This document shows, piece by piece, positions 3,340 through 61,499 of a DNA stretch of 64,000 bases. The stretch's first letter is position 1. Each line of letters begins with the position of its first letter. Source of the DNA: Pseudomonadota bacterium. Its GTDB lineage: Bacteria > Pseudomonadota > Gammaproteobacteria > Burkholderiales > Rhodocyclaceae. The notes under the pieces were generated by a model, which made no database searches, was not told the origin of the DNA, and was given only the letters and a program-made list of their open reading frames with translations. The translations under genes were made by a program, and so were the position numbers. The DNA lies in NCBI GenBank assembly GCA_018261895.1, contig JAGTRT010000007.1, positions 1-64,000 of the forward strand. Reading direction: 5' to 3'.

Positions 3340-3374
3340 TTTCGGTTTTGGCCATTTTTTCCGGTAGACCGTCA
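3340..3374 (-). repeat. Dispersed 35-bp repeat, copy 1
   Basis: Reads on the minus strand as the consensus with one change in the first block (GGTCTACC for GGTCAACC). It lies between the adhesin terminator and the convergent Crp/Fnr gene. Confidence 0.85.
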
Positions 3375-3404
3375 AAGGTCCGGAAATGGCGCTGCCGTGA
3401 CCGA

Positions 3405-4133
3405 CTATTCGTGCTGGCGCAGCCTGGGGACGCTCGGGATGTGGATTTTCCGGCCTTCTACGGCAATCAGGCCGAGTTCGCTGAGTTCGTGCAGGATGCG
3501 CGAGAAATGCTCCTGCGTCAGGTTGAGGCGGGAGGCGATGACGCCCTTGCTGGTCGGCAGCGTGACCGAGATGTTGCCGCCATCCTGCTCGTTTTCGGGC
3601 AGTTCGCGCAGCAGGTAGCCGATGATGCGCTGCTTGCCGGAGTGCAGCGAATAGGATTCGACGTCGTTCATGAGCTGGTGCAGGCGCATGGCCATGCCGG
3701 CCAGCATCTTGCGGCACAGGTTGTGGTCGCGCTGCAGCTCCTCGAAGACGACGTTCTTCGAGACATGGAGCAGGAGGCAGTCGGTCAGCGCCTGGGCGAA
3801 GACGATGTAGGGCTTTTCCATGAACATGATGGCTTCGCCGAAACTCTGGCCCTGGCTGATGATTTCCACGACTTTCTCGCTGCCCTGCGACGAGGTGAAG
3901 GCCAGCTTGATCTGGCCATAAACCAGCAGGTGGAAGCCGTTGCAAGGGTCGCCCTTGTGAAAAAGGATCTCGCCCTTGTCGGTGTGGATTTCGCGGGTGC
4001 CACGCGCGATGCGGCCCAGCTCTTCCGGCGCCAGGCCCTGGAACAGCGGGATGTGGGTCAGCAAGGCTTCGATATTGATGGGGTGGCTACCGTGCATGAT
4101 TGTGACCGTGTGAAATGTGCGCCATCGTGTCAT
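3405..4133 (-). CDS. Crp/Fnr family transcriptional regulator
   Basis: A 242-residue protein with a cyclic-nucleotide-binding-type beta barrel (about 25-145), a long dimerisation helix, and a C-terminal winged helix (about 185-235) with the recognition segment TSKGVIASRLNLTQEHFSRIL. The N-terminal cysteines of oxygen-sensing Fnr are absent; only isolated cysteines are seen, so a [4Fe-4S] sensor is unlikely. It may be a Crp- or Dnr-like sensor, but the effector cannot be told from the sequence. Starts at 4133 or at the internal Met at 4097 are both possible; neither has a strong ribosome site. It converges on the adhesin gene; regulation of the adhesin would be speculation. Confidence 0.85.
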   Translation of the reverse strand: MTRWRTFHTVTIMHGSHPINIEALLTHIPLFQGLAPEELGRIARGTREIHTDKGEILFHKGDPCNGFHLLVYGQIKLAFTSSQGSEKVVEIISQGQSFGEAIMFMEKPYIVFAQALTDCLLLHVSKNVVFEELQRDHNLCRKMLAGMAMRLHQLMNDVESYSLHSGKQRIIGYLLRELPENEQDGGNISVTLPTSKGVIASRLNLTQEHFSRILHELSELGLIAVEGRKIHIPSVPRLRQHE

Positions 4134-4209
4134 TCCACCCGCGCCATAGCAATACGACTTTGTGACTAGTGGCCGGCGCTGCCACGGGCGACGGCGCCGG
4201 TTGCCGCGC

Positions 4210-5364
4210 TCAGTTCTCGCAGCGGAACGGCAGATGCCCAGCCGCCTGGTCGCGGTAGGTGGCGACCGCGTCGCCCTGCGTGGCCAGGTGACGGCCGATC
4301 AGACGATGCATCGCCGGATCGGCGATCCAGTGGGCAGAATGCACCACGGTCGGCGTGAAACCCCGGGCGATCTTGTGCTCGCCACCGGCGCCGGGCTCGA
4401 AGCGGGTCAGGCCCTCGCGCAGGCAATAGGCGATGCCCTGATAAAAGCAAAGCTCGAAATGCAGGCTGTGGTACTGCCCGCTGCACCCCCAGTAACGCCC
4501 GCACAGCGTGTCGTCGCTGCGGAAGCAGAGCGAGACGGCGACCGGTCGCAGCCCGTCGCGGGCGATGAAAACGACCATGCGCCGGCCCAGCGCATGCGCC
4601 AGATCGGCGAAACACGCCGCCGTGAATACCGCATGGTTGCCGAACTTGTCGAAGGTCGAGGCATACAGCGCGTGCAACGCCGGCCACTCGGCCGGATCGA
4701 CCTCGTTGCCGTGGCGGACCTCGATGCTCAAGCCGCTCTCGGCCACCTTGCGTCGCTCGGCCCGAACCTTGCGCCGCTTTTCCGCGGCAAAGCCCGCCAG
4801 GTAGCCGTCGAAATCGCCGCAGCCGTTGTCGATCCACTGGAACTGCACGTTGTGGCTGATCAGCATCCCGGCGGCGGCCAAGGCCTCGCGGTCCGCCTCG
4901 GCCGGAAAGGCGACGTGCCAGGACGACACCTCGTCGCCAGCGGCGAGCGCCAGCGCTCCGTCGATCAGGGCATGGCGTATCGACACGGCCTGCGGCCCCT
5001 CGGCCACCAGCAGGCGCGGCCCGGTCGCCGGCGTGTGCGGCAGGCCGCTCAACAGCTTCGGGTAGTAGGCGCGGCCCAGTTGCCGGTAGGCGGCAGCCCA
5101 CGACCAGTCGTGGATGAAATCGCCGTGCGAGTTGAAGCGCAGGTAGAGCGGCAGGATGCCGACGATGCCGCCGTCCTCGTCCGTGGCCACCAGATGGCGG
5201 GCCAGCCAGCCCCAGTCCGCGCCGGCTACGCCGTGCCGTTCGACAATGCCGAGAAAGTCCGCGTTGAGGAAAGGATCGCCGGGTGGCGCGAGGCGGGACC
5301 AGGCCATGCGCGGGATGGCGTCGGCAGCTTCGAGGATTTGAATCGACAGGGCGGGCATGGGCAT
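4210..5364 (-). CDS. FemAB-like / DUF482 N-acyltransferase
   Basis: 384 residues matching the peptidogalycan biosynthesis/recognition (FemAB_like, DUF482) family in length and layout. The protein has two GNAT-like halves. The conserved C-terminal segments include the regions around WGCSGQYHSLHFELCFYQG and FEPGAGGEHKIARGF, which are characteristic of this family. Members are cytosolic and are thought to transfer an acyl or amino-acyl group, but the substrate is not established. The gene stands alone between the Crp/Fnr gene and a divergent gap that carries a copy of the dispersed repeat. A second Met two codons in (5358) is an equally possible start. Confidence 0.8.
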   Translation of the reverse strand: MPMPALSIQILEAADAIPRMAWSRLAPPGDPFLNADFLGIVERHGVAGADWGWLARHLVATDEDGGIVGILPLYLRFNSHGDFIHDWSWAAAYRQLGRAYYPKLLSGLPHTPATGPRLLVAEGPQAVSIRHALIDGALALAAGDEVSSWHVAFPAEADREALAAAGMLISHNVQFQWIDNGCGDFDGYLAGFAAEKRRKVRAERRKVAESGLSIEVRHGNEVDPAEWPALHALYASTFDKFGNHAVFTAACFADLAHALGRRMVVFIARDGLRPVAVSLCFRSDDTLCGRYWGCSGQYHSLHFELCFYQGIAYCLREGLTRFEPGAGGEHKIARGFTPTVVHSAHWIADPAMHRLIGRHLATQGDAVATYRDQAAGHLPFRCEN

Positions 5365-5459
5365 GTTTTTCCGGGGACGTAGAAGCGGACCGCCGCCAGC
5401 AGCGCAGGTTCCCAGCGCCCGAGCGATTTGCCCAAAAAGTCCCTTCCGGCGGGAATCCT

Positions 5460-5494
5460 ACGGTCAACCGGAAATTTCGGCGAAAATTGAAATT
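5460..5494 (+). repeat. Dispersed 35-bp repeat, copy 2
   Basis: Perfect first block ACGGTCAACCGGAAA, then the TTTCGGCG variant of the middle and GAAAATTGAAAT. It lies in the divergent gap between the FemAB-like gene and the DUF302 gene. Confidence 0.9.
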
Positions 5495-5547
5495 TCCGCC
5501 GGGCGGTCGCCGCCGCCGGCGTATCGAATTCAGGACCAGGACCGCCC

Positions 5548-5995: not shown

Positions 5996-7300
5996 ATGGC
6001 CTCACCCAACGACACCGCCAGCATGGCGCTCTTTTGCGACTTCGAGAACGTCGCCCTCGGCGTCCGCGACGCCAATTACGAGAAGTTCGACATTCGCCCC
6101 GTGCTGGAGCGCCTGCTCGCCAAGGGCAGCATCGTCGTCAAGAAAGCCTATTGCGACTGGGACCGCTACAAGGCCTTCAAGTCCGCTATGCACGAGGCCA
6201 ATTTCGAGCTCATCGAAATCCCCCACGTGCGCCAGTCCGGCAAGAATTCGGCCGACATCCGCATGGTCGTCGATGCCCTCGATCTCTGCTACACCAAGGC
6301 CCACGTCGACACCTTCGTGATCATTTCCGGCGATTCCGACTTCTCGCCGCTTGTCTCCAAGCTGCGCGAAAACGCCAAGAAAGTCATCGGCGTTGGCGTC
6401 AAGCAGTCGTGCTCCGACCTGCTCGTCACCAACTGCGACGAGTTCATTTACTACGACGACCTCGTGCGTGACCGCGAAGGCCGTGGCAACGCGCGGCGCG
6501 ACCGCGAAGCGCCCAAGCGCTCGCCGGAGGAAGAAGCCAATCGCAAGCTCAAGCAGGAAGAGCGCAAGGCCAAGGCCATCGACCTGGTCGCCGCCACCTT
6601 CACCGATCTCATGGCCGACCGCGGCGAAAGCGAACGCATCTGGGCATCCGTGCTCAAGGAAGTCGTCAAGCGGCGCAATCCGGGCTTCAACGAAAGCTAT
6701 TATGGCTTCCGCACCTTCGGCAACCTGCTCGAGGAAGCCGCCAGTCGCGGCCTGCTCGGCTTCGGACGCGACGACAAGGGCGCCTTCGTCTTCCGCGGCC
6801 AGCCCAAGCCGGCGGTCGAATCGGAGATGCCGGCGGAAGCACAGGCTGACGCAGCGCTCACCGGCACGGAAGCCGAGCCGAATCTCACGGTCAACCCGGA
6901 AAATGAGCCAAAATCAGAATCCCCTGTCGCCGAGCCGGAAGCCGCCAGCAGCGGCCGTCGGCGCGGTGGCCGTCGTTCGCGCAACGGTCGGGAGCGTCCG
7001 CTAGCCGAGGTGGTTGAAACGGCGCCGACGTCCGAAGCTGCACCGGTCAGCGCACCCGCCGAGGCCTCACCGGCCAGCGACGAAGCAGCGCCGGCCGACA
7101 AGGCCGAAAGCAAGCCGCGTCGTGGCGGGCGCCGGCCGCGCAAGGTCGAAGCTACGCAGGAACCGACACCGGTGGCCGCCGAGCCGGCGCCCGTCGAATC
7201 GCCGGTAGTGGCCGATGCGGGCGCGGCAGACGCTAAACCCGCCAAGGCCAAACGTTCGTCGCGTCCGCGCCGGGCCAAGCCGGCGGCCGACGCCGCTTAA
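5996..7300 (+). CDS. NYN (LabA-like PIN) nuclease with LOTUS/OST-HTH domain and disordered tail
   Basis: 434 residues. Residues 10-160 form a NYN domain with acidic clusters expected for metal binding (FCDFENV near 14; SADIRMVVDALD near 88; ISGDSDFSPL near 108). Residues about 200-270 look like an OST-HTH/LOTUS RNA-binding domain (ERIWASVLKEVVKRRNPGF...YYGFRTFGNLLEEA). The rest is a low-complexity tail rich in Ala, Pro and Glu with basic RRGGRR-type patches. LabA-type proteins of this layout are predicted RNases or RNA-binding regulators. A degenerate copy of the dispersed repeat (nt 6887-6920) codes for residues about 298-309, at the start of the tail. Target RNA is unknown. Confidence 0.85.
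   Translation: MASPNDTASMALFCDFENVALGVRDANYEKFDIRPVLERLLAKGSIVVKKAYCDWDRYKAFKSAMHEANFELIEIPHVRQSGKNSADIRMVVDALDLCYTKAHVDTFVIISGDSDFSPLVSKLRENAKKVIGVGVKQSCSDLLVTNCDEFIYYDDLVRDREGRGNARRDREAPKRSPEEEANRKLKQEERKAKAIDLVAATFTDLMADRGESERIWASVLKEVVKRRNPGFNESYYGFRTFGNLLEEAASRGLLGFGRDDKGAFVFRGQPKPAVESEMPAEAQADAALTGTEAEPNLTVNPENEPKSESPVAEPEAASSGRRRGGRRSRNGRERPLAEVVETAPTSEAAPVSAPAEASPASDEAAPADKAESKPRRGGRRPRKVEATQEPTPVAAEPAPVESPVVADAGAADAKPAKAKRSSRPRRAKPAADAA
6887..6920 (+). repeat. Dispersed 35-bp repeat, copy 3 (inside NYN gene, degenerate)
   Basis: Matches the consensus with one extra C in the first block and changes in the middle (ACGGTCAACC CGGAAAATG, then CCAAAATC). It is read in frame as TVNPENEPKSE in the disordered tail. 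Confidence 0.6.
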
Positions 7301-13108: not shown

Positions 13109-13143
13109 GACGGTCAACCGGAAAAAATGGCCAAAATGGAAAT
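13109..13143 (+). repeat. Dispersed 35-bp repeat, copy 4 (consensus)
   Basis: Identical to the majority base at essentially every position. It begins two bases beyond the hda stop codon on the far side, in the hda-HAD gap. Confidence 0.95.
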
Positions 13144-13145
13144 GC

Positions 13146-13790
13146 TCAGCGGGTATTGAGCAGTTCGCGCAGCAGGGGCAGGGTGACGGCGCGCTTGTGT
13201 TCGAGCGTGTAGTGGTCGAGGGCGACGACGATGGCCGACAGGGTGCGCATGTCGCGCGGGGCGTGGCGCATGAGGTAGTCGATCAGTTCCGGCGTCAGCT
13301 TGAGGGCGCGTTCGCGGGCCTGGGTGGTGATCGCTTCGGCCTTTTCGGCGTCGGTGAGCGGGTGCAGGCGGCTGATCAGGCCGGAGCCGAGGCGGGTGCG
13401 CAGGTCTTCTCGGAGCTGGAGGTGGGCCGGCGGCTGGCTGGCGGCGGTGAGCAGCATGCCGCCCGCCATCTTGAGGCGGTTGAAGTGGTTGAAGAGGGCG
13501 ATCTGGCCGGTTTCGTCGAGATCCTCGACATGGTCGACGGCGAGCTGATCGGCGGCCGGCGCTGCCTGCAAGGCTGGGTCGCGGGCGGCATCGACGTAGG
13601 CAAAGCCGCTGGCCTGCAGCAAATGCGAGCGACCGGAGCCGGCTTCGCCCCACAGGCAGAACGAGGTGTCCGGACGGGTGCCGGCCAGCCATTCGGTGAG
13701 CAGGGTGACGGTTTCGGCGTTGCTGCCGGCGACGAAGTTGTCGAGCGTCGGCGCGCTTTCGGGCAGCAAATCGAGGATCAGTTGACGCAT
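13146..13790 (-). CDS. hda: DnaA inactivator Hda
   Basis: Works with the sliding clamp to stimulate hydrolysis of DnaA-bound ATP and so limits replication initiation. 214 residues. The N-terminus (MRQLILDLLPES) carries a clamp-binding type motif. The AAA+ core has a Walker A variant GEAGSGRSHLLQA (about 48-60) and a Walker B-like VDHVEDLDE. Sensor segments follow, with ASQPP and the DLRTRLGSGLISRLHPL box typical of DnaA/Hda. The stop is followed within a few bases by a dispersed-repeat copy. The downstream gene is the HAD phosphatase in the same direction. Confidence 0.95.
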   Translation of the reverse strand: MRQLILDLLPESAPTLDNFVAGSNAETVTLLTEWLAGTRPDTSFCLWGEAGSGRSHLLQASGFAYVDAARDPALQAAPAADQLAVDHVEDLDETGQIALFNHFNRLKMAGGMLLTAASQPPAHLQLREDLRTRLGSGLISRLHPLTDAEKAEAITTQARERALKLTPELIDYLMRHAPRDMRTLSAIVVALDHYTLEHKRAVTLPLLRELLNTR

Positions 13791-14333: not shown

Positions 14334-15608
<1,275 letters not shown>

Positions 15609-15732
15609 GCTGTTGCTCTCCACAAGACGGGAATGCCCGGCGCCGGGCTTCGGGAAACGGTAAAGGCCGGCATTTTATCAGAGGCGGGCCGCCATCCCGC
15701 CAATCTGCGGCCGCGTGGGCGGGAGTGGGCAC

Positions 15733-15767
15733 ATTTCAATTTTGGGCATTTTTTCCGGTTGACCGTG
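15733..15767 (-). repeat. Dispersed 35-bp repeat, copy 5
   Basis: Minus-strand reading has the perfect first block CACGGTCAACCGGAAA, middle AAATGCC and end CAAAATTGAAAT. It is in the tyrS-purM divergent gap. The rest of that gap holds no recognisable gene; a TAAAAT-like -10 element is at about 15844. Confidence 0.92.
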
Positions 15768-24047: not shown

Positions 24048-24082
24048 GACGGTCAACCGGAAAAAATGGCCAAAATAGAAAT
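24048..24082 (+). repeat. Dispersed 35-bp repeat, copy 6
   Basis: Differs from the majority sequence only at the variable base before GAAAT. Located between the miaA start and the 3' end of the DUF2202 gene. A short inverted repeat (CGCAGCGCTTCCGG ... CCGGAAGCGCTGCG, about 24107-24142) follows and may be the DUF2202 terminator, though its T-run is poor. Confidence 0.95.
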
Positions 24083-24153: not shown

Positions 24154-24774
24154 TCAGCAGGCGGTGCGTTGGCGACGGCGCGCCACTGCGCCAACGATGC
24201 CGAGCCCGGCGAGCAGCATGGCGTAGGTTTCGGGTTCCGGCACCGGGGGCGGCGGGGTCATGGCCAGCCAGTTGTTGAAGGCGCGCAGGTGGTTGTTCGA
24301 GGCATTGGTCAGGTTGCCGTAGACCGTGTAAAGCGAGGAGGTGCTCGGCACCAGAGCGCGGGCGGCAGCCAGGTCATTGATGTCGATGACTTCGATGTTC
24401 TTGCCGACGGTCAGCGCGGCAAAGCTCGAGGTGCTGCCTTGCGCGATGAGGCTGTGGTAGAGCGACTGGAGTGAGGCGTTCTGAAATTGCCCGGCCGGCA
24501 GCGAGGTCAGGTCGGTGACATTCAGGCCAACGGCGTTGGCTTCGGCAAGCAGCGAGGTAACATGGCTGTCTTCCGAACGCGGGATGTTCTGGAACGGCTT
24601 GATTGTCGGGTAGAGGGCGCCAAATGTCCGGTAGACGTCGCCGGCCAGCTTTTCTTCTTCGATCATGAAACGCAGGCTGTCGATGGCCGCTGGCGAATAG
24701 GTCTGGGCCTGGGCGACGGTGCTGCCGGTCAAGGTGATGGCCAGCGCGGAAATCAAGATTTTGAACGTGTTCAA
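24154..24774 (-). CDS. DUF2202 ferritin-like protein with PEP-CTERM sorting signal
   Basis: 206 residues from a TTG start at 24774, preceded by AGGGGGT; this start gives a standard signal peptide (FKILISALAITLTGSTVAQAQ). The mature part is a DUF2202 domain, a four-helix ferritin-like fold: the first helix has LRFMIEEEKLAGDVYRTFG (EEE/E metal-type acids) and the second has RSEDSHVTSLLAEANAVG. The C-terminus VPEPETYAMLLAGLGIVGAVARRRQR is a PEP-CTERM signal for exosortase processing. Export of a ferritin-like domain to the surface is the notable combination. The open frame continues upstream of the TTG but is not signal-like. Confidence 0.85.
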   Translation of the reverse strand: MNTFKILISALAITLTGSTVAQAQTYSPAAIDSLRFMIEEEKLAGDVYRTFGALYPTIKPFQNIPRSEDSHVTSLLAEANAVGLNVTDLTSLPAGQFQNASLQSLYHSLIAQGSTSSFAALTVGKNIEVIDINDLAAARALVPSTSSLYTVYGNLTNASNNHLRAFNNWLAMTPPPPVPEPETYAMLLAGLGIVGAVARRRQRTAC

Positions 24775-25055
24775 GATGCTACCCCCTGATGATTTACTTA
24801 TTGGAATGGTGCCGGAGCGCCGCGGTGAGCGGCATTCGTCCGCGCCCACAGGGTTTTCTGGCTGCGGCGATGATAAGAAGATGCTAATGCTTTCGGAATG
24901 TGTCAAATTGCCGCATGCATAACGGGAGGTCTGGCCTCTTCCCGGGCGTGTCCTGATCCACTGGCGATCATCTTCCGATGACTGTAATGTTCGCAAATGG
25001 GCCTGCATACGGGCCTCGCCCCCATTGACGGTGGCGTCATCCTGAAGGTTGCGAC

Positions 25056-27233: not shown

Positions 27234-27610
27234 CGGCCGTATTTTAGGCGGTGAAGCCCCGATCTGGCTGTAACGATGTGTGGTCTGGCGCGCTTTGGCG
27301 CTCCAGGGCGCCGTCTGGGGATTTCGATTTTGGCCGAAATTTCCGGTTGACCGTGAGATCGGGCGTTAAGGCAATTCAGAGGTCTGGTTTCGAGCCTAAG
27401 AATGTTCGGCGTCGTAGGCAAGCATGTTACTGTCATTGCCGGTCCGTGCGGATCTCAATTTTCCGGTTGGCTACAGATGAGCGAAATGAATGTTCAGCCT
27501 AAGACGACCGCTAATGCACAAGCTACCGCCAAAAATATTCATTTGGACTAATGACAATTAGCTAGTTTGTTGTTAGCCTCAAGGGGCAGTAATTTAATTT
27601 AGGGGAAATT
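27234..27610. other. 377-bp gap without a convincing gene
   Basis: Divergent gap between the TonB-like gene and a PEP-CTERM gene. It holds repeat copy 7, a shorter decayed half-copy at about 27455-27470, and, from about 27470, more A/T-rich DNA leading to the ribosome site AGGGGAAATT of the PEP-CTERM gene. A 24-codon frame at 27478-27552 is not supported. Confidence 0.7.
27321..27355 (-). repeat. Dispersed 35-bp repeat, copy 7
   Basis: Perfect first block on the minus strand, middle TTTCGGCC, then AAAATCGAAAT. Lies 88 bp upstream of the TonB-like start in a divergent gap. Confidence 0.92.
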
Positions 27611-28474
27611 ATGAAATATGGTTTTAGGAAACTGGCCTTGGCGGGTGTCATGGCTGCCGCGTTTGCAACCCCCGCTCTGGCCGCAGTATCGGCTTCGGCA
27701 ACGGTGAGCGACTTCAGCATTACGCTATACGATCTGAATCCGCTGGACGGCATCATGCCGACGATCACTTGGTCCAGCATTTCCGCCGATCCGAACATGG
27801 CGACAAATACCAGCGCCAGTGTCAGCGGGCCATATAGCGCTAGCAACACGTACAACTACACCCCGATCGGGGTATTGAATACGTCAACAGCTACGATCTC
27901 TGACGCGACGGCAACGGCCACCATCAATGGAAATATGTTATCGGCGTCTGGGTCCGCCACGGCGACTAGCGCTAGTTGGCAAAATCGGTCGTTTAGCGCA
28001 GGTGCGCGGCATGGCGATTATGTTAGCAACTTCATCTTGAGTGCGAATACTGCTGCTATTTTTACGGCAAATGTGACCACGCTGGCTAGCGTTACAGTGG
28101 GCTATGACCCTCTTAGTGGTCAGAGCGAAGCCGCATCGGCAAATATCACCATGTCAGTGAGCGGCAATGGCGCGAGCGGTAATGGCAGCCAAAATTCTAG
28201 CGATAGCCTATCGGCTTCAGCCGGTGGTTGGTGGTGGTATCCCACTCTCCCGTTAACACAGTCTAACTCGGCTATCCTGGCTGGCTCCTTCGTTAACACC
28301 TCGGCAGGTGATCTGTCTGGTGCTTTCCAACTGGGGGCAACCGTAAATGGCTATACAAATGTAGTGGCTAGTGCTGTCTCCGTGACCGCCGTTCCCGAAC
28401 CGGAAAGCTACGCGATGTTCCTGGCAGGTCTCGGTCTGATCGGTGCTGTAGCGCGTCGTCGTCAGGCACGCTGA
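27611..28474 (+). CDS. PEP-CTERM secreted protein, Ser/Thr/Ala-rich
   Basis: 287 residues. Signal peptide LALAGVMAAAFATPALA (cleavage near residue 24), a low-complexity beta-rich body full of Ser, Ala, Thr and Asn (for instance SVSGNGASGNGSQNSSDSLSAS), and a C-terminal PEP-CTERM signal VPEPESYAMFLAGLGLIGAVARRRQAR. Exported proteins of this kind are sorted by exosortase and often glycosylated or embedded in the biofilm matrix; the body is unlike any family I recognise. Codon use is less GC-biased than in the flanking genes, which hints at different origin or weak expression pressure. Strong ribosome site at 8 bp; followed by a bidirectional terminator. Confidence 0.85.
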   Translation: MKYGFRKLALAGVMAAAFATPALAAVSASATVSDFSITLYDLNPLDGIMPTITWSSISADPNMATNTSASVSGPYSASNTYNYTPIGVLNTSTATISDATATATINGNMLSASGSATATSASWQNRSFSAGARHGDYVSNFILSANTAAIFTANVTTLASVTVGYDPLSGQSEAASANITMSVSGNGASGNGSQNSSDSLSASAGGWWWYPTLPLTQSNSAILAGSFVNTSAGDLSGAFQLGATVNGYTNVVASAVSVTAVPEPESYAMFLAGLGLIGAVARRRQAR

Positions 28475-28490: not shown

Positions 28491-28518
28491 AAAAAGCCCC
28501 GCTTCGGCGGGGCTTTTT
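28491..28518. terminator. Bidirectional terminator between PEP-CTERM gene and mutL
   Basis: AAAAAGCCCCGC/GCGGGGCTTTTT with a TTCG loop; T-runs on both strands serve the two convergent genes. Confidence 0.92.
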
Positions 28519-30389
28519 TATTGCCCGCGCAGGAAAAGCTTGTCGAGCTGGTCCATCGTCAGTTCCGTCCAGGTCGGGCGGCCGTGGTTGCATTGGCCGG
28601 CGCGTTCGGTTTCTTCCATCTGGCGGAGCAGAGCGTTCATTTCGGGGAGGGTGAGCTGGCGGCGGGCGCGGACGGCGCCGTGGCAGGCCATGGTGGCGAG
28701 AAGCTCGTTGCGGTGGGCGGTGGCGAGCTGGGTGATGCCGTGTTCGCGCAATTCGGCAATGAGCGATCTGGCCAGCGCGGCGGGGTCGCCGGACTGGAGC
28801 AGGGCCGGCACGGCGCGGACGCCGAGTTGGTTCGGGCCGAGTGGCGCGATTTGGAAGCCGAGATCAGCCAGGGCGTCGGCGTGTTCTTCGACGGCGGCAA
28901 TGTCGAGCGGGTCGGCCGAGAAGACGGCGGGGATGAGCAACGACTGGGTGGCGATCTGGCGGTGGTCGAAGGCGGTTTTGAGCTTTTCGTAGAGGATGCG
29001 CTCGTGCGCGGCGTGCATGTCGATGAGGATGAGACCGCGGGCGTTCTGGGCGAGGATGTAGATGCCGTGCAGTTGGGCCAGGGCGTAGCCGAGGGGCGGG
29101 CCGGCGCTGTCGGTCGGCGTACCGGCCGTTTCGGCGGGGCTTTGACGGTCAACCGGAAATTTTGGCTGAAATGAAAATGTCGCGGCCGGGCTGGCGGGGG
29201 CAACTTGCTGGGCGGCGCGGGCAAACGCGAGATAGGCCGCCGCAGCGGGTTCGGCCACGCCGAGGCTGCCTTGATGGCGCAGGGGCGGGGCGTATTCCGG
29301 ATTGGCCCTATTTTGCGTTTCAGACAGAAAACCGCGGCTGACCGCAGATGACGAGTCGTCGACGTCGGCGCTGCCGCGTTCGATCAATGCCGGTGCCGTT
29401 GCCGCCTGCACCGGCGCAGCCAGCGTGCGCTGGATGGCGTGGAAGACGAACTGGTGCATGGCGCGCGAATCGCGGAAGCGGACTTCGGTCTTGGCCGGGT
29501 GCACATTGACGTCGACGAGCGCCGGTTCGATGTTGACGAACAGGCAGACGGCCGGCTGGCGGCTGCCATGCAGCACGTCACGGTAGGCCTCGCGCAGGGC
29601 GTGGCTGATGATCTTGTCGCGCACGAAGCGGCCGTTCACGAAGACGAACTGGCCGTCCTTGGTGTCGGTGGCGCGCGTCGGGTCGATGGCGAAACCGCCG
29701 ATCGACAGGCCGCCGGCACCGGCATCGACAGCCCGGGCGGCGCCGAGAAAGTCGTCGCCAAGAATGTCGGCGATGCGTCGGGCGCGGTCGGCGGGGGCGA
29801 GCTGGAACAGGTTGCGGCCGTTGTGGGTCAGGCTGATGGCGACATCCGGCCGGGTCAGGGCCAGGCGCTTGACGGCGTCGGCGCAGTGCGCGAACTCGGT
29901 GCTTTCCGACTTGAGGAATTTGCGGCGGGCCGGGGTGTTGTAATACAGGTCGCGCATCTCGACCACCGTGCCGGCCATCAAGGCAGCCGGCTCGGGTTCG
30001 GCGCCCGGCTCGCCACGCAGTTTCCAGGCATGGCCGGCGCCGCGTTCGCGGCTGGTGATCGTCAGGCGGGCGACGGAGGCCACCGAGGCCAGCGCCTCGC
30101 CGCGAAAGCCGAGGGTGCCGACGCGTTCAAGGTCGTCGATCGTCGAAATCTTCGAGGTGGCATGCCGGGTCAGGGCCAGAGCCAACTCGTCTTTGGCGAT
30201 GCCGCAGCCGTCGTCGGTGATGCGGATGAGCTTGACGCCGCCTTCTTCCAGATGCACCTGGATGGCCGTGCTGCCTGCATCCAGGCTGTTTTCGAGGAGT
30301 TCCTTGAGGACGGAAGCGGGTCTTTCGACCACTTCGCCAGCAGCAATCTGGCTGATCAGGAGGTCGGGGAGGCGGGCGATAGTCGGCAT
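28518..30389 (-). CDS. mutL: DNA mismatch repair protein MutL
   Basis: 623 residues. GHKL ATPase motifs in order: ENSLDAGSTAI, RITDDGCGIAKDEL, TLGFRGEALASV and, later, NGRFVRDK. The C-terminal dimer domain contains DMHAAHERILYE (about 452-463), fitting the DQHA-x2-E-x4-E endonuclease pattern with Met for Gln, so this MutL probably nicks DNA itself and does not depend on a MutH. The linker (about 340-430) is low-complexity, and residues about 404-416 (FSFQPKFPVDRQ) are encoded by a dispersed-repeat copy. Single gene, convergent with the PEP-CTERM gene. Confidence 0.96.
   Translation of the reverse strand: MPTIARLPDLLISQIAAGEVVERPASVLKELLENSLDAGSTAIQVHLEEGGVKLIRITDDGCGIAKDELALALTRHATSKISTIDDLERVGTLGFRGEALASVASVARLTITSRERGAGHAWKLRGEPGAEPEPAALMAGTVVEMRDLYYNTPARRKFLKSESTEFAHCADAVKRLALTRPDVAISLTHNGRNLFQLAPADRARRIADILGDDFLGAARAVDAGAGGLSIGGFAIDPTRATDTKDGQFVFVNGRFVRDKIISHALREAYRDVLHGSRQPAVCLFVNIEPALVDVNVHPAKTEVRFRDSRAMHQFVFHAIQRTLAAPVQAATAPALIERGSADVDDSSSAVSRGFLSETQNRANPEYAPPLRHQGSLGVAEPAAAAYLAFARAAQQVAPASPAATFSFQPKFPVDRQSPAETAGTPTDSAGPPLGYALAQLHGIYILAQNARGLILIDMHAAHERILYEKLKTAFDHRQIATQSLLIPAVFSADPLDIAAVEEHADALADLGFQIAPLGPNQLGVRAVPALLQSGDPAALARSLIAELREHGITQLATAHRNELLATMACHGAVRARRQLTLPEMNALLRQMEETERAGQCNHGRPTWTELTMDQLDKLFLRGQ
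29144..29178 (+). repeat. Dispersed 35-bp repeat, copy 8 (inside mutL)
   Basis: First block perfect, middle TTTTGGCTG, end GAAAAT. It is antisense to mutL and codes for part of the inter-domain linker without breaking the frame. Confidence 0.88.
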
Positions 30390-30998: not shown

Positions 30999-31640
30999 AT
31001 GGAATTCCTCACCCAGTTCATCGATATCGTCATGCACCTCGACAAGCACCTGGCCATTCTGGTGCAGCAGTACGGGTTGTGGATTTACGGCATCCTGTTC
31101 TTCATCATCTTTGCCGAAACCGGCTTCGTGATCTTCCCCTTTCTTCCGGGTGATTCCCTGCTCTTCGTGGCTGGCGCGCTGGCCGCGATCGGCGAGGGTG
31201 GCATGAATATCTGGACGCTGATCGCCGTCCTGCTCGCCGCGGCGGTGCTGGGGAACATGGTCAATTACCAGATCGGCCGCCTGCTCGGGCCCAAGGTGTT
31301 TCACTGGGAGAACTCGCGCTTCTTCAACCGGGCTGCGCTGGAAAAGACCCATGCCTTCTATGAAAAGCATGGCGGCAAGACGCTGGTCATCTCGCGTTTC
31401 CTGCCGCTCTTCCGGACCTTTGCGCCGTTCGTGGCGGGCATCGGCGCCATGTCCTATCCCAAATTCTTCATCTTCAACCTGATCGGTGCGGCGGCCTGGG
31501 TCGTGTCGCTGTGCCTGGCCGGCTTCTGGCTGGGCAACATGCCGTGGGTCAAGGCCAACCTGTCGATCCTCATCGTCGGCATCATCGTCCTCTCGCTGGT
31601 GCCGGTCGGTATCGGCTACATGAAGAGCCGGGCCGCCTGA
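30999..31640 (+). CDS. DedA family membrane protein
   Basis: 213 residues with five to six hydrophobic segments. The family hallmarks are clear: FAETGFVIFPFLPGDSLLFVAGALAA (about 40-66), GNMVNYQIGRLLGPKVF with the basic glycine-rich turn, FYEKHGGKTLVISRFLPLFRTFAPFVAGIGAM (about 121-152) including the essential Arg residues. DedA/VTT proteins are inner-membrane scramblase- or flippase-like proteins needed for envelope homeostasis, some for recycling undecaprenyl phosphate. First gene of a tight run of six; its stop overlaps the next start. Confidence 0.94.
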   Translation: MEFLTQFIDIVMHLDKHLAILVQQYGLWIYGILFFIIFAETGFVIFPFLPGDSLLFVAGALAAIGEGGMNIWTLIAVLLAAAVLGNMVNYQIGRLLGPKVFHWENSRFFNRAALEKTHAFYEKHGGKTLVISRFLPLFRTFAPFVAGIGAMSYPKFFIFNLIGAAAWVVSLCLAGFWLGNMPWVKANLSILIVGIIVLSLVPVGIGYMKSRAA

Positions 31641-32344
31641 TGCGCTGGCTGGCCGTCATCCTCGTGCTCATGTTGGCGGCCTGTTCGACGAAAATGGACA
31701 AGGCCGGGCGGACGGAATCGACGGTCAACCCGAAATATTTGCTCAAATCGGAAGTGGACCGCATCGCCGACACCAATCGGGCCGAGGTTGTGGACGGCTT
31801 GCTGCTGATTGCCGACAAGCTCTACAAGCGCAATCCCAAGGAATGGCGAAAAGGCGGGGCGGAGAGCCGCGAGGCGGCTGTGGACCGGCTTCGCCAGCGC
31901 CATTTCCGCAGCTGGCCGGAATTCGGTGGCCAGCGCGAAGGCGCCGTGGCGGCGCTGGCCTTTGCCGACGTCTATGCGGGGGACCGCGTCACGGCCCTGA
32001 TGTTCGGGCTGCTCACCATGGTCGATGCCGCCTACGAGCACAAGGACGAGTTCTACATTCTCGACAGCCTCAATGAGATGAAGCTCTACAACAGCGCGCG
32101 CAACATGGATATTGCCGTCTGGAAGCTCGGCCACGACCGCACGGCGGCGGGCGAACTGTTCCTGCTCTCGAACGAGCTCGATCCAGCCAACCGCAACCTT
32201 TCCTTCGAGCGCGAATTCGGCCGCATCATGGGCCTGCTCGACTTCATGGCCAAGGTCGTCGCCGACCGCAATGGCCGAACCTTTTCCCGCGTCAGCCAAT
32301 CCGTGGCCAGCGCCATTTTCCTACCCGTGAGTTTTTTGAAATGA
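31640..32344 (+). CDS. Lipoprotein of unknown function
   Basis: 234 residues beginning at the ATG that overlaps the dedA stop. Lipobox LMLAACS with Cys15, then a Lys/Ser linker whose residues about 27-38 (STVNPKYLLKSE) come from a dispersed-repeat copy. The mature part is predicted helical (RIADTNRAEVVDGLLLIADKLYKRNPKEW; MDIAVWKLGHDRTAAGELFLLSNELDP) and resembles betaproteobacterial lipoproteins sitting next to dedA and purN, but I do not recognise a domain. It overlaps purN by ATGA, so dedA-lpp-purN are translationally coupled. Confidence 0.8.
   Translation: MRWLAVILVLMLAACSTKMDKAGRTESTVNPKYLLKSEVDRIADTNRAEVVDGLLLIADKLYKRNPKEWRKGGAESREAAVDRLRQRHFRSWPEFGGQREGAVAALAFADVYAGDRVTALMFGLLTMVDAAYEHKDEFYILDSLNEMKLYNSARNMDIAVWKLGHDRTAAGELFLLSNELDPANRNLSFEREFGRIMGLLDFMAKVVADRNGRTFSRVSQSVASAIFLPVSFLK
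31720..31754 (+). repeat. Dispersed 35-bp repeat, copy 9 (inside lipoprotein gene)
   Basis: GACGGTCAACCCGAAA, then a diverged middle and CAAATCGGAAG. Sense orientation; codes for the linker just after the lipobox. Less conserved than the intergenic copies. Confidence 0.65.
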
Positions 32345-36479: not shown

Positions 36480-36506
36480 AAATGGCGCGGGGTGAGCGCG
36501 CCATTT
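36480..36506. terminator. Hairpin/terminator after mscS, joined to repeat copy 10
   Basis: Stem AAATGGCGCG/CGCGCCATTT, loop GGGTGAG. It runs directly into the dispersed repeat. The same hairpin plus repeat recurs at 48509-48569. Confidence 0.75.
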
Positions 36507-36537
36507 CAATTTTGGGCTTTTTTTCCGGTTGACCGTC
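36503..36537 (-). repeat. Dispersed 35-bp repeat, copy 10
   Basis: Minus-strand reading has the perfect first block, AAAAAGCCC middle and AAAATTGAAAT end. Lies between convergent mscS and the outer-membrane channel gene. Confidence 0.94.
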
Positions 36538-48508: not shown

Positions 48509-48538
48509 AAATGGCGCGGGGTGAGCGCGCCATTTTTT
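48509..48538. terminator. Hairpin joined to repeat copy 11
   Basis: Same stem-loop as at 36480-36506 (AAATGGCGCG, loop GGGTGAG, CGCGCCATTT) with T-runs on both sides. On the minus strand it would end the 48595-48741 gene. Confidence 0.75.
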
Positions 48539-48569
48539 CGATTTTGGGCTTTTTTTCCGGTTGACCGTC
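48535..48569 (-). repeat. Dispersed 35-bp repeat, copy 11
   Basis: Perfect first block, AAAAAGCCC middle, AAAATCGAAA end; nearly identical to copy 10 including the adjacent hairpin. Confidence 0.94.
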
Positions 48570-48856: not shown

Positions 48857-49348
48857 TTACCCCAGCCAGCGCCGGCGCAGCCAGTGGTCGAGCGAGAGGC
48901 GGCCGGGGCCGAGCAGGATCAGCGGCAGGAGCATGCCGAGAAACAGCACGGGCAGCTTGAAGTTGCCGTAGCCCTGGTCGGTGAACACGTAGCCTTGCAT
49001 CAGTTCGCCCAGGGTGTTCCAGGATTCCGGCCAATGCACGCTGGCGATGGCGACGACGGTCAGGATGAACAGCGAGGCCGAGAAGAAGCGCGTCCCCAGC
49101 CCGATCAGCAGCGCGACGCCGCCGAGCAGCTCGAACCAGGTCGCCATCTGCCAGCTGATGTCCGGCGGCACGACGTTGAACGGGAAGGGGAAGCGGTCCT
49201 GGATGTCCTCGAACCAGTTGTGGCCATTGAACTTTTCCAGGCCGGATTCGAAGAAATCCCAGGCGAGCAGGAGGCGCAGGCTGAGCATGGCCAGCCACAG
49301 GCCGAGCAGGTCGATGCCGCGCAAAGTGCCGGATAGGAGGTTTTTCAT
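48857..49348 (-). CDS. DoxX family membrane protein (BufD-like)
   Basis: 163 residues from the ATG at 49348, which overlaps the DUF2063 stop (ATGA). Four predicted membrane helices and DoxX-type features: SLRLLLAWDFFESGLEKFNGHNWF at the first helix, then ATWFELLGGVALLIGLGTRFFSA and the LVFLGMLLPLILLGPGRLSLDHWL-like end. DoxX proteins often close MNIO/bufferin operons (bufD position) and may handle quinones or redox; the role is not settled. Upstream open frame is a shadow of the DUF2063 gene. Confidence 0.88.
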   Translation of the reverse strand: MKNLLSGTLRGIDLLGLWLAMLSLRLLLAWDFFESGLEKFNGHNWFEDIQDRFPFPFNVVPPDISWQMATWFELLGGVALLIGLGTRFFSASLFILTVVAIASVHWPESWNTLGELMQGYVFTDQGYGNFKLPVLFLGMLLPLILLGPGRLSLDHWLRRRWLG

Positions 49349-50088
49349 GTCTGCGCTCCCAGGATGATGCCCTGCTCGCGCAGTTGGTCGAGCATGGCGT
49401 GGCCTTGAATGACCAGGGTTTCCGGCGCCGGGTGTTGCAGTTCCTGAGCGATGCGCAGGCAGGCGGCGCGGCCGCTCAGGGCGCCGTCGGCGAGGATGGC
49501 CAGCAGGCGAGCGGTGACCGGTGTGCTGGCGACGAAGCGGATTTCGTCCTGTGCGTCGCGATAGACCAGCAGTTGCGTCGCCAGCGGCTTGCGTGGCCGG
49601 TAGTCCGGGCCGATGCGCTGCACTGGCCAGGCGTAGCTCAGGTTCATGAGCGTCGGGTTGAGCACCGGGTGGGCGATAAGCAGGTCGCCGTTGGGATCGT
49701 GCGCAGGCGCCGGGGCATCCATGATGTCGACGGCGAGTTCGACCCATTCGTAGTGCGCCAGCTCGGGCAGCCATGCGGGCAGGGGCTGGGTGATGGCCGC
49801 CTCGCTAAGGTAGCGGACGAACTCACGCGGAATCTCGCGGAACCAGGGGGTGTGGCTCGGCCAGTCGCGATAGAAGCCGCGGTTCAGGCGGCGCCAGAGC
49901 GATTCGCCGAGCGTGGCGCGGCACACCGGGAAGCAGCTATCGAGAAAGCCGCAGATGTTGTTGAACAGCAGCTCGTTGTACACCGCCATGCGGCGCGCTG
50001 GTACGCCGGCCGGGCGGGGCGCCCGATGCGGGTCGCGCACGTGGCGGCCGAAGGCGCGCTGGAAAGTCTGGAAGTCCGGGGCGTTCAT
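49345..50088 (-). CDS. DUF2063 partner protein of MNIO enzyme (BufC-like)
   Basis: 247 residues. The N-terminal DUF2063 domain is clear: DFQTFQRAFGRHVRDPHRAPRPAGVPARRMAVYNELLFNNICGFLDSCFPVCRATLGE (parts of residues 5-62), followed by FYRDWPSHTPWFREIPREFVRYL. The C-terminal winged-helix-like half ends with QGHAMLDQLREQGIILG. In known MNIO systems (methanobactin MbnC-like, HvfC, BufC) such partners bind the precursor peptide and present it to the DUF692 enzyme. Start overlaps the bufB stop by one base and its stop overlaps doxX. Confidence 0.9.
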   Translation of the reverse strand: MNAPDFQTFQRAFGRHVRDPHRAPRPAGVPARRMAVYNELLFNNICGFLDSCFPVCRATLGESLWRRLNRGFYRDWPSHTPWFREIPREFVRYLSEAAITQPLPAWLPELAHYEWVELAVDIMDAPAPAHDPNGDLLIAHPVLNPTLMNLSYAWPVQRIGPDYRPRKPLATQLLVYRDAQDEIRFVASTPVTARLLAILADGALSGRAACLRIAQELQHPAPETLVIQGHAMLDQLREQGIILGAQT

Positions 50089-50933
50089 CAGGCGGCCCTC
50101 GCGTTCGTCACCGGCAAGGCCGCCTGGCGGCGGGCAATTTCGCCGACTTCGACGGTCAACCGGAAAAAATCGTCAAAATGGAAATCCCGTTCCAGGCAGG
50201 TCGGCACGTTGCCGGTGTGCGCGTACGCGGTGTCGAGCAAAGACCACACGGGGTCGATCACCGTGGCGCCATGCGTGTCGACGAGCAGGCCGTCGGGCTC
50301 GACGTAATGACCGGCGACATGGATGTAGCAGGTGCGCTCGAGCGGCAGCGCGGTCATGAAATCGACCGCATCGAAGCCGAAATTCCGGCTGTTGACGTAG
50401 ATGTTGTTCACATCGAGATGCAGCAGGCAGTCGGCCTCGCGGATGATGTTCCCGATGAACTCGGGCTCGCTCATCTCGGCGCCGGGTGGCGCCACGTAGT
50501 ACGAGGCGTTTTCGATGCCGATGCGCATCTCGAGGATGTCCTGCGCCTGGCGGATGCGCTGGGCCGTCCATTTCACGGCCTCCTCGGTCATTGGGATCGG
50601 CAGCAGGTCATAGAGGTGGCTGTCATCGGCGCACCACGACAGGTGCTCGGTGTACAGCGTCATGCCGTGTTCGGCCATGAAGGCCTTGATCCGGCGCAGC
50701 AGGGCGACGTCGAGCGGGGCGATGCCGCCGAGCGAAAGCGACAGGCCGTGACAGACGAAGGGGTAGCGTTCGGTGAAGTGGCGCAAATCCTTGGCGGATC
50801 TGCCGCCCATGCCGGCCCAGTTTTCCGGGGCCAGTTCGAAGAAGGCTATGTCGTCCGGGACGTGCTGTTTGAGCGGGGCGATCAGCTCCCGACGAAAGCC
50901 GAGACCGGCGCCGACCGGCGGTCGATGGATCAT
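50088..50933 (-). CDS. MNIO/DUF692 multinuclear iron oxidase (BufB-like)
   Basis: 281 residues, the usual length. A TIM-barrel DUF692 enzyme with metal-ligand segments in order: FFELAPENWAGMGG, VCHGLSLSLGG (His near 62), TEHLSWCAD (Glu, His near 95), GIENASYYV (Glu), HLDVNNIYVNSRNFG (Asp, Asn), YIHVAGHYVEPDG (His) and DTHGATV. MNIO enzymes use two or three irons and oxygen to convert Cys residues of a precursor into oxazolone/thioamide or thiooxazole groups. The precursor gene is 70 bp upstream and the partner follows. Residues about 250-261 (DFHFDDFFRLTV) are encoded by an antisense dispersed-repeat copy. Confidence 0.93.
   Translation of the reverse strand: MIHRPPVGAGLGFRRELIAPLKQHVPDDIAFFELAPENWAGMGGRSAKDLRHFTERYPFVCHGLSLSLGGIAPLDVALLRRIKAFMAEHGMTLYTEHLSWCADDSHLYDLLPIPMTEEAVKWTAQRIRQAQDILEMRIGIENASYYVAPPGAEMSEPEFIGNIIREADCLLHLDVNNIYVNSRNFGFDAVDFMTALPLERTCYIHVAGHYVEPDGLLVDTHGATVIDPVWSLLDTAYAHTGNVPTCLERDFHFDDFFRLTVEVGEIARRQAALPVTNARAA
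50151..50185 (+). repeat. Dispersed 35-bp repeat, copy 12 (inside bufB-like gene)
   Basis: First block and AAAAAAT perfect, CGTC for GGCC, then AAAATGGAAAT. It is antisense to the gene and codes for its C-terminal segment in a different frame from the mutL copy. Confidence 0.9.
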
Positions 50934-57198: not shown

Positions 57199-57233
57199 CA
57201 CGGTCAACTGGAAAAAATGCCCAAATTTCAAGT
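57199..57233 (+). repeat. Dispersed 35-bp repeat, copy 13
   Basis: CACGGTCAACTGGAAA (one change), then AAATGCCCAAA and a diverged end. In the divergent RR-dsbB gap, 54 bp before the dsbB start. Confidence 0.82.
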
Positions 57234-59064: not shown

Positions 59065-60255
59065 ATGGAATTACAGGGAAAACGCATCGTTCTCGGCGTC
59101 ACCGGCGGCATCGCGGCCTACAAGGCGGCCGAACTGGTTCGCCTGCTCGGCAAGCGGGGCGCCGACGTGCAGGTTGCGATGACCGAGGGGGCGACGCATT
59201 TCGTGACGGCGACGACCTTCCAGGCGCTCTCCGGCCAGCCGGTTTACCTGGACCAGTGGGATGCGCGCATGCCGAACGCCATGGCGCATATCGATTTGTC
59301 GCGCTCGGCCGACCTGATCCTCGTCGCACCGGCCTCGGCCGACTTCCTGGCGCGCATCGCGAACGGCATGGCCGATGACCTGCTGGCGACCATGGTGCTG
59401 GCACGCGATTGCCCGCTGCTCGTGGCGCCGGCGATGAACCGCCAGATGTGGGAGAACCCGGCGACGCAGCGCAATGTCGCCCAGTTGCTGGTCGACGGCG
59501 TGCAGCTGATCGGTCCGGACAGCGGCGAGCAGGCCTGCGGCGAAGTGGGGGCGGGCCGGATGGTTGAGCCCGAGGAAATCGTTGAGGAGGTCATTGCCTT
59601 CTTCACGCCCAAGTTGCTGGCCGACCGCAAGGTGCTGATGACCGCCGGTCCGACCTTCGAGGCGATTGACCCGGTACGCGGTATCACCAATCTGTCGTCG
59701 GGGCGCATGGGCTATGCCGTGGCGCGGGCGGCGCGGCAGGCCGGGGCCGAGGTGACGCTGGTCTCGGGGCCGGTCGGTTTGCAGGCTCCGCAGGGTGTGA
59801 CGCGCATCAATGTGCGCAGCGCGCTCGACATGCAGGCGGCCGTGATGGCGCACGCGGCAACTTCGGATATTTTCATCGGCGTGGCGGCGGTGGCCGATTA
59901 CCGCGTGGCCAATGCGGCCGAGCACAAGCTCAAGAAGGATACGGGCGGCATCCCGCCCATCGAGCTGGTCGAGAATCCGGACATCCTGGCCGAGGTGGCC
60001 GCCTTGAAGGATGGTCCGTTCTGCGTCGGCTTTGCGGCGGAAAGCCGCAATCTGGAGGAATACGCGCAGAGCAAGCGGCGCAAGAAGAACATTCCGCTGA
60101 TCGCCGGCAACCTGATTCAGGAAGGTTTCGGCGGTGACGACAACCGGCTGGTGTTGTTCGACGACACCGGCGTCCATCCGCTGACGCCGGCGCCGAAATC
60201 GGTGCTGGCCCGGCAGTTGGTGGAACATATCGCGAACATGATTGGGAGAGCCTGA
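59065..60255 (+). CDS. coaBC: Bifunctional phosphopantothenoylcysteine decarboxylase/synthetase CoaBC
   Basis: Two consecutive steps of coenzyme A synthesis. 396 residues. CoaC part (1-185): [49 protein letters not shown] (His near 73), [16 protein letters not shown] and the reductive Cys in [13 protein letters not shown]. CoaB part (from about 190): [44 protein letters not shown] and the ENPDIL stretch. Its stop codon overlaps the dut start (TGATG), so the two are translationally coupled. Confidence 0.97.
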
Positions 60256-60704
60256 TGCATCACATCGACATCAAAATTCTGGATAACCGCCTGCGCGAGA
60301 CGCCGCCGGCCTATGCGACACCGGGTTCGGCCGGGCTGGATCTGCGCGCCTGTATTGAGGTGCCCATCCATGTGGCGCCGGGCCAGACGACGCTGGTGCC
60401 GACCGGCATGGCGATTCATCTGGCCGATCCGGGCCTGGCGGCCATGATCCTGCCGCGTTCCGGCCTCGGTCACAAGCATGGCATTGTGCTCGGCAATCTG
60501 GTTGGGCTGATCGACAGCGACTATCAGGGCGAACTCATGGTGTCGGTGTGGAACCGCGGTGGCTCGACTTTCACGCTCAACCCGCTCGACCGCATCGCCC
60601 AGCTGATCATCGTGCCGGTCCTCCAGGTCGGCTTCAATATCGTCGACGACTTCGATGCGAGCCATCGCGGCGAGGGCGGTTTTGGCAGCACCGGGCACGC
60701 ATGA
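60255..60704 (+). CDS. dut: dUTP pyrophosphatase Dut
   Basis: Hydrolyses dUTP to dUMP. 149 residues with all five trimeric dUTPase motifs: [46 protein letters not shown] and [11 protein letters not shown] (C-terminal lid). Overlaps coaBC by one base, as is common in beta- and gammaproteobacteria. Confidence 0.98.
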
Positions 60705-60770
60705 GGCTTGAAAGCGCCGCGTAAGAAAATTACGATTTAATTATTTACTTTTATCCGCGGGGTGAGGGAA

Positions 60771-61385
60771 ATGAGAAAAATCGGATTTCGACAGCTTGGT
60801 GCCGTGCTGGCAACAACGTTTTCCTTGGCCGCAGGTGCTGCTGACGGCGGCGATCTGGCCCGCGCGGAGGAGATCGTTTCCGGGCGCTGTTTCCTTTGCC
60901 ATGGCATGGAGGGCGAGTCGGCCAGCCCGGTTTTCCCGCGTCTGGCCGGGCAGCACGCCGATTACATCGCCAAGCAATTGGGCGATTTCAAGTCGGGCAA
61001 GCGCAACAGCGACACCATGAAACCGCAGGCTGAAGAGCTCACGCCGGCCGAAATGAAGGCGCTGGGCGCCTTCTTCCAGGCCAAGTCGGTCGGGCCGCGT
61101 CCTGCCAAGGACCCGGAATTGCTCGCCGTCGGCAAGTTCGTCTTCAATCGCGGCAACCAGTTCAGCGGTCTGCCCGCCTGCTCGGCCTGCCACGGCGCCA
61201 AGGGGCTGGGGACGCCGCAATTGCCGCGCCTGGCCGGCCAGCATCCGCGCTACATCGAGGACCAGTTGAAGCAGTTCAACAAGCGCGAGCGGACCAACGA
61301 CAACGCGGTCATGCACACCGTCGCATCGAAGCTCTCCGAGCTCGAAACGCACGCCGTGGCGGAATACATCGCGACGCTGGACTGA
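60771..61385 (+). CDS. Dihaem cytochrome c4-like protein
   Basis: 204 residues from ATG 60771 with GGTGAGGGA upstream. Signal peptide (FRQLGAVLATTFSLAAGAADG), then two class I cytochrome c halves: CFLCHGMEGESASPVFPRLAGQHADYIAKQL (CxxCH at about 42-46) and CSACHGAKGLGTPQLPRLAGQHPRYIEDQL, each with a later Met ligand (DTMKPQAEEL and NAVMHTVASKL). This is a periplasmic electron carrier of the c4/c553 type, often feeding terminal oxidases. Terminator follows. Whether it serves the FccB protein at the window end is not known. Confidence 0.92.
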   Translation: MRKIGFRQLGAVLATTFSLAAGAADGGDLARAEEIVSGRCFLCHGMEGESASPVFPRLAGQHADYIAKQLGDFKSGKRNSDTMKPQAEELTPAEMKALGAFFQAKSVGPRPAKDPELLAVGKFVFNRGNQFSGLPACSACHGAKGLGTPQLPRLAGQHPRYIEDQLKQFNKRERTNDNAVMHTVASKLSELETHAVAEYIATLD

Positions 61386-61405
61386 GTTCGCCGCACCGGC
61401 AATGG

Positions 61406-61432
61406 AAAGGCCGCCTCATGGGCGGCCTTTTT
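61406..61432 (+). terminator. Terminator after the cytochrome c gene
   Basis: Stem AAAGGCCGCC/GGCGGCCTTT with a TCATG loop followed by a T-run; repeat copy 14 lies 33 bp further on. Confidence 0.88.
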
Positions 61433-61464
61433 ATTTCTTTGCGCGCCTTGGCGGGGCGATGCGG

Positions 61465-61499
61465 ATTTCGATTTTGGGCAAAATTTCCGGTTGACCGTC
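61465..61499 (-). repeat. Dispersed 35-bp repeat, copy 14
   Basis: Perfect first block on the minus strand, middle TTTTGCCC, end AAAATCGAAAT. Between convergent cytochrome and receiver-protein genes. Confidence 0.93.

Follow-up and report, generated by a model that had tools for sequence, protein, structure and literature searches.

In the passages of PMC12616744 cited here, self-recognition in natural transformation is described from two families only. The uptake signal sequence (USS) of the Pasteurellaceae is given there as a core that has two AT-rich tracts downstream of it, with dialects that follow phylogeny. As far as the parts of PMC7811141 that we draw on go, USS evolve by point mutation, the inner core GCGG is crucial for uptake in H. 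influenzae, and that species has 1,465 core copies or 2,206 USS. The DNA uptake sequence (DUS) of the Neisseriaceae is described in excerpts of PMC12616744 and PMC3630211 as a continuous motif of up to ~13 nt with a CTG core and no AT tracts. Its dialects are species-specific and congruent with phylogeny, its copies are both intragenic and intergenic, and inverted pairs are frequent (PMC3630211, in the sections cited). Here we analyze a dispersed repeat of ~34 bp in a 64-kb stretch of DNA (contig JAGTRT010000007.1, positions 1 to 64,000; hereafter, the window). By its MutL relatives, the host belongs to the Azonexus/Dechloromonas group of the Betaproteobacteria. The genomic pattern of this motif indicates that it is probably a DNA uptake sequence with species variants, working like the DUS of Neisseria and the USS of Haemophilus.

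The motif resembles USS in its architecture of a core and spaced AT tracts, as USS is portrayed in the cited parts of PMC12616744 and PMC7811141. Most Azonexus dialects contain GCGGT, which also ends both USS cores (the AAGTGCGGT and ACAAGCGGT types). But none of the Azonexus dialects that we found has either nonamer, the core runs on as CRAC or CGGC, and some dialects, including the window's, have ACGGT. Also, the Azonexus motif is present in several hundred copies, its host is in another class of Proteobacteria, and its putative uptake role is read from genomes alone. The first AT tract is further from GCGGT in the Azonexus motif than it is in USS. The motif is like DUS in that its dialects are species-specific and go with clades, in that its copies lie both within and between genes, and in that both hosts are Betaproteobacteria. 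It differs from DUS by spanning ~38 bp with AT tracts and by the scarcity of inverted pairs (one close pair among 100 of the 362 places in the host genome with an exact core block; see below). The DUS sequence itself is unrelated to the Azonexus motif. We found no report of the motif among the open-access papers listed.

An earlier note on this DNA had described 14 copies of the repeat, in both orientations, with the 15-base block ACGGTCAACCGGAAA intact in ten of them. All of this holds: the copies lie at most one base from where they had been placed, eight are on the plus strand and six are on the minus strand, and ten have the exact block. The conserved 3' part that had been described is also present, as WWWWWW at positions 13-18, CCAAAWT at 22-28, and GAAAT at 30-34. 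Allowing up to two mismatches, ACGGTCAACCGGAAA has 15 matches in the window (ten exact, four with one mismatch, and one with two), and dinucleotide shuffles of the window have a mean of 0.16 matches and a maximum of 1. (The four include a partial fifteenth match at 3295.) Fourteen places match the longer motif with at most six mismatches, as scored over 27 fixed positions of 34, and are listed here together with the mutL gene:

3339 to 3372, minus strand: motif copy with 2 mismatches; faces a core-only partner at 3295-3309 (plus strand) across a terminator-like hairpin
5460 to 5493, plus strand: motif copy with 1 mismatch; intergenic by gene calls
6887 to 6920, plus strand: motif copy with 4 mismatches; within the open reading frame at 5996-7300 (weak NYN-domain match), same strand
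13110 to 13143, plus strand: motif copy with 0 mismatches; just past the 3' end of hda (13146-13790, minus strand)
15733 to 15766, minus strand: motif copy with 0 mismatches; upstream of tyrS (14334-15623, minus strand)
24049 to 24082, plus strand: motif copy with 0 mismatches; in the gap between miaA and a PEP-CTERM protein gene
27321 to 27354, minus strand: motif copy with 0 mismatches; intergenic by gene calls
29145 to 29178, plus strand: motif copy with 3 mismatches; within mutL, opposite strand (mutL site 2)
31721 to 31754, plus strand: motif copy with 5 mismatches; within the open reading frame at 31511-32344
36503 to 36536, minus strand: motif copy with 0 mismatches; in a gap between convergent genes, adjoining a hairpin
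48535 to 48568, minus strand: motif copy with 1 mismatch; intergenic by gene calls, with the same adjoining hairpin sequence as at 36503
50152 to 50185, plus strand: motif copy with 1 mismatch; within an hvfB-type gene (50088-50933, minus strand)
57200 to 57233, plus strand: motif copy with 4 mismatches; intergenic by gene calls
61465 to 61498, minus strand: motif copy with 0 mismatches; intergenic by gene calls
28518 to 30389, minus strand: mutL, with one good copy; its relatives have dialect-specific copies at two places

The copies had been described as having no constant position relative to gene starts, but ten of the 14 are intergenic, in a window that is ~12% non-coding, so their placement is not random. 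(The split between intergenic and coding is from simple gene calls.) The hairpin that adjoins two of the copies, GGCGCGCTCACCCCGCGCC, occurs twice in the window, at 36484-36502 and 48513-48531. With up to two mismatches allowed, it is absent from the 36 other host loci and the 20 stretches of a related genome (G070) that we scanned.

Sequence logos were made from 47 copies in the host genome and 36 copies in G070, picked by allowing at most four mismatches across the 27 fixed positions. Because the copies were picked by their mismatches to these positions, conservation there is partly due to this selection. At the free positions 16-18, almost all copies have A or T, with the letter variable (and 6% C at position 18 in G070). 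There is a T at position -3 in 100% of the host copies and 89% of the G070 copies, and the signal is near background from position 35 onward. The two AT tracts have their centres near 15.5 and 26, which is 10.5 bp or one helical turn apart, and positions 31-34 form a third, short run of A. Where the blocks are identical, the letters favoured upstream of them differ between the host and G070.

The host genome contains 362 exact ACGGTCAACCGGAAA blocks (171 forward and 191 reverse), and the reversed control has none, so the motif is far above chance genome-wide. The earlier extrapolation, to the order of a thousand copies, overshot about twofold: the extended motif, with up to three mismatches, occurs 427 times in the 3.30-Mb, 85%-complete assembly, or ~430 copies in the genome. 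Exact blocks are present at 0.16 per kb in the window versus a genome average of 0.11.

We then examined other genomes of the genus and the order. The window's own spelling has low counts in many relatives. Using dialect logos, we built a variant-blind pattern, CGGTCRAC-N15-AWWT. Across 76 genomes from the genus, this pattern has 238-659 copies in 40 genomes and 1-94 copies in the other 36, with none in between, and its reversed control has at most three matches per strand. Another dialect, ATGCTACGGTCGGCC (up to one mismatch), has 313, 186, and 263 copies in G083, G028, and G095, and 13 or fewer in the other 73 genomes. Because three of the 36 low-count genomes hold the ATGCTACGGTCGGCC dialect, 43 of the 76 genomes are bearers by either pattern. 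(The two patterns miss any dialect outside them.) Among 399 genomes from the order, six that belong to the genus have 45-476 variant-blind matches. The pattern is not enriched in other genera: the remaining 393 genomes, seven of them from the same family, have at most 12 matches, and their reversed controls reach 18.

Unbiased counting of words in 80 kb per genome, for ten low-count genomes and then for ten more, revealed further spellings. Variants of GCGGTCRAC with species-specific flanks are among the leading words in G029, G063, G064, G019, G008, and G065, and weakly so in G023; G034, G060, and G069 have no such word in the 80 kb counted for each. The second ten genomes yielded one further dialect, AATGCTACGGTCG in G083 (where AATGCTACGGTC was the word returned); in the other nine, the 80 kb counted for each contained no such word. 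Additional variants were suggested by loci of 20 kb, among them CTGCGGTGAACC (L060) and AATTGTCGCGGTCGAC (L071). CTGCGGTGAACC is not abundant in any of the 76 genomes (four have 1-3 matches). In Azonexus fungiphilus (L062; at 11015, for example), the core is ACGGTCGACCGT, a perfect palindrome, so its orientation would come from the flanking AT tract alone. Among cultured strains, motif-like copies are present in the loci of A. fungiphilus DSM 23841, Dechloromonas hortensis MA-1, Dechloromonas sp. H13, and isolate s22, whereas Dechloromonas agitata is a non-bearer.

These relatives share one plan: the core is built around CGGT and is followed by two AT tracts, the second of them about a helical turn beyond the first. 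In core-anchored logos, the AT tract lies at a fixed distance in bearers, and the second AT tract of other dialects is at the same distance as in the window's. By inspection, the variants go with clades on a MutL tree, in which 16 of 43 inner branches are well supported. The distribution suggests repeated loss of the motif within the genus.

The copies show little preference for either strand: for the variant-blind pattern, the totals across the 40 bearers are 9066 and 9114. In a sample of G070 (20 stretches, or 400 kb of 4.15 Mb), there are 45 copies, with 23 in intergenic regions, 18 in genes, and four at an edge; 18% of this sequence is non-coding.

To see how copies arise, we compared coding sites across species. 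We aligned the mutL of the window with those of 45 related species, guided by the protein sequences, and counted gaps relative to L031. The best-aligned site is mutL site 2 (at 29145 in the window), where 42 of the 46 rows are gap-free within the 34 positions while their mismatches to the motif range from 2 to 23. There, copies and non-copies differ by substitution, not by insertion. At mutL site 1, other dialects carry their own spelling, such as GCGGTCGAC in L071 and L047. At the copy within the hvfB-type gene (50152), no gaps occur in ortholog rows that have 5, 10, 13, and 14 mismatches, and small gaps occur in two more (with 4 and 12 mismatches).

The motif is also scarce in mobile DNA. 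The competence gene comEC is interrupted in ten of the 76 genomes, by ~2-64 kb, as judged from where its pieces lie on one contig. In three of these that are bearers by the variant-blind pattern (G085, G067, and G002), the inserts total 125.6 kb and contain one motif, versus 13.8 expected (Poisson P = 1.5e-5). (This expectation uses each genome's own motif rate without taking the GC content of the insert into account, and the lengths are rounded for two of the genomes.) The inserts are lower in GC than their flanks. The low-motif genomes G089, G060, and G005 have no motifs inside or outside their inserts, and hence are uninformative. At least two unrelated kinds of element interrupt comEC, as illustrated by four inserts (within loci L261-L276):

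G085, contig C1, 2720418 to 2763735: comEC insert with an rve-domain transposase and TniQ (Tn7/Tn5053-like by domain)
G060, contig C1, 3064466 to 3128662: comEC insert with an rve-domain transposase and TniQ (Tn7/Tn5053-like by domain)
G002, contig C33, 109617 to 143311: comEC insert with a family B DNA polymerase and a D5/VapE-type primase
G089, contig C1, 2218699 to 2251157: comEC insert with a family B DNA polymerase

A competence gene is thus a recurrent landing site for large inserts. As for viral contigs, none contains an exact match to the extended motif; the 15-base block occurs in 27 of them, which by a rough estimate fits chance.

The motif combines dialects of shared architecture with copies that evolve in place, an even balance between strands, and rarity in mobile elements. 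This combination is the genomic mark of DUS and USS, and so we favour an uptake sequence. Other kinds of repeat that we considered fit it less well. If the motif is an uptake sequence, then cells of the Azonexus/Dechloromonas group would be naturally transformable via type IV pili, ComEA, and ComEC, and a protein at the pilus tip would prefer motif-bearing DNA. Because the preferred fragments would recombine into the chromosome more often, matches would accumulate, by point mutation and biased recombination, to hundreds of copies. They would do so in tolerant places, such as intergenic gaps and variable regions of proteins. As the reader protein changes, the preferred spelling would drift, giving rise to dialects.

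Most genomes of the genus have candidates for this machinery. ComEC is above the cut-off in 68 of the 76 genomes, and it is in a single piece in the host. TIGR00426, which we take to be a ComEA-type model, is above the cut-off in 67 genomes and has some match in 75. A GspH/FimT domain is matched in 69 genomes. The host has a minor pilin operon that encodes a GspH/FimT-like protein, PilV (above the cut-off), a PilC-type adhesin (below the cut-off), and a further pilin.

Several observations weigh against an uptake sequence. ComEC, TIGR00426, and the pilins do not separate bearers from non-bearers. Nine genomes that are at least 99% complete have comEC in one piece but have no motif word in the 80 kb counted for each (G066, G015, G077, G084, G026, G021, G097, G068, and G069), so the machinery and the motif are not tied one to one. 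Nor is motif loss significantly linked to the interruption of comEC, which affects four of the 43 bearers and six of the 33 other genomes (Fisher P = 0.32). The weakest part of the case is the receptor: neither FimT nor a stand-alone prepilin encoded beside a kefB-like gene tracks the dialects. For FimT, we compared 44 genomes, of which twelve have the window's dialect (three of these at only 91-167 copies) and 32 do not (including four non-bearers). Identity averages 34% within the twelve versus 30% to the 32 others. The stand-alone prepilin is found in 72 of the 76 genomes, including non-bearers, and it differs between genomes with the same dialect (86-88% versus 57-60% identity). At the level of individual sites, two bearers (L037 and L039) have an 18-nt extension directly beside the motif at mutL site 2; mutL site 1 is gappier, with only 25 of 46 rows gap-free; and in an automated nucleotide comparison of 31 sites, most of the non-matching rows fell in regions that align poorly, largely within mutL, and had gaps. 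With these caveats, the copies appear to behave as in-place substitutions, judging from coding sites.

Alleles of the FimT-like gene in the minor pilin operon (L242 and L338-L377) are very different, often under 40% identical even between genomes with the same dialect. A search of PDB sequences for a receptor lead returned only pilins and nothing specific. In the part of PMC12616744 that we cite, a FimT-like minor pilin (PpdA/ComN) is proposed to be the USS reader in Pasteurellaceae (2025).

The earlier note had offered three candidates: an uptake-type signature, a REP-like (repetitive extragenic palindromic) or mobile repeat, and a nucleoid or segregation site. The uptake-type signature is the one that gains support, given the clade-linked variants, evolution in place within a gene, balanced strands, and depletion from mobile elements; the other two fared poorly. 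If the motif were bound by a chromosome-organising or cell-division protein (of the MatP, SlmA, or FtsK-orienting type), with hundreds of sites over the chromosome, then the high copy number and the depletion from mobile elements would make sense, and the AT tracts could bend DNA. The spread of copies in G070 is also fairly even, or slightly more even than random, though not significantly so (dispersion index of 0.65 across 20 windows, P = 0.13). We consider such a site unlikely. A segregation site would be expected to have a strand bias with replication, as FtsK-orienting and Chi-type polar sites do, but the 400-kb sample of G070 shows no polarity between replichores (plus/minus counts of 14/13 in one skew half and 6/12 in the other, P = 0.36). 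Also, the spelling shifts between close species, and the motif is absent from much of the genus, which would be unusual for a housekeeping site. The missing strand polarity and the species-specific spelling disfavour the idea of a segregation or nucleoid site.

REP and RAYT-associated repeats are short, dispersed, partly palindromic, and mostly intergenic, and the Azonexus motif, with ~430 dispersed copies, an imperfect palindrome in its core, and enrichment between genes, has these properties too. A small non-autonomous repeat of this or another mobile kind would spread by insertion, however, and at mutL site 2 the length is unchanged in 42 of 46 species, whether or not they have the motif. 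The gap-free ortholog rows at 50152 argue the same way, the dialects alter letters of the core while keeping the architecture, and the viral contigs lack exact copies of the extended motif. The coding sites are the ones that were tested well, and mutL site 2 in particular disfavours a REP-like or mobile repeat, which we think is very improbable. We give hardly any credence to a transcription-linked element over gene ends, such as part of a terminator or a regulator's site. It would account for the intergenic enrichment, for the several copies near stop codons, and for the hairpin shared by two copies in the window. Yet 18 of the 45 copies sampled in G070 lie inside genes, as do four of the 14 window copies, on the same strand or the opposite one, and the window has no Rfam match (and no tRNA).

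Other features of the window include HvfB/HvfC-type genes for the maturation of a ribosomally synthesized and post-translationally modified peptide (49345-50933, both above their cut-offs). Two PEP-CTERM proteins are encoded near mutL, one at 24154-25008 (above the cut-off for the FxDxF family) and one at 27611-28474 (below it). The protein encoded at 65-3289 is large and has a C-terminal target domain for type I secretion.

Returning to uptake, it seems somewhat likely, from the genomes compared, that the Azonexaceae (Betaproteobacteria) are a third family with an uptake-sequence system of its own, with about six or more dialects that follow the plan of the Haemophilus USS (a GCGGT-type core and helically phased AT tracts). 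If so, Beta- and Gammaproteobacteria would owe their one architecture either to a reader inherited from a common ancestor or to the same physical need to kink DNA into the secretin, and dialects would have been gained and lost repeatedly inside one genus. The hosts of such a third system are free-living, dozens of their species have been sequenced, and they include several dialects as well as bearers that are closely related to non-bearers. With them, the origin, switching, and loss of uptake bias could be studied, and one could ask whether DNA entry follows a physical rule of GCGG plus AT tracts. In an environmental genus, the system would also act as a barrier to gene flow that can be read from genomes, and it would provide a practical handle for transforming these bacteria.

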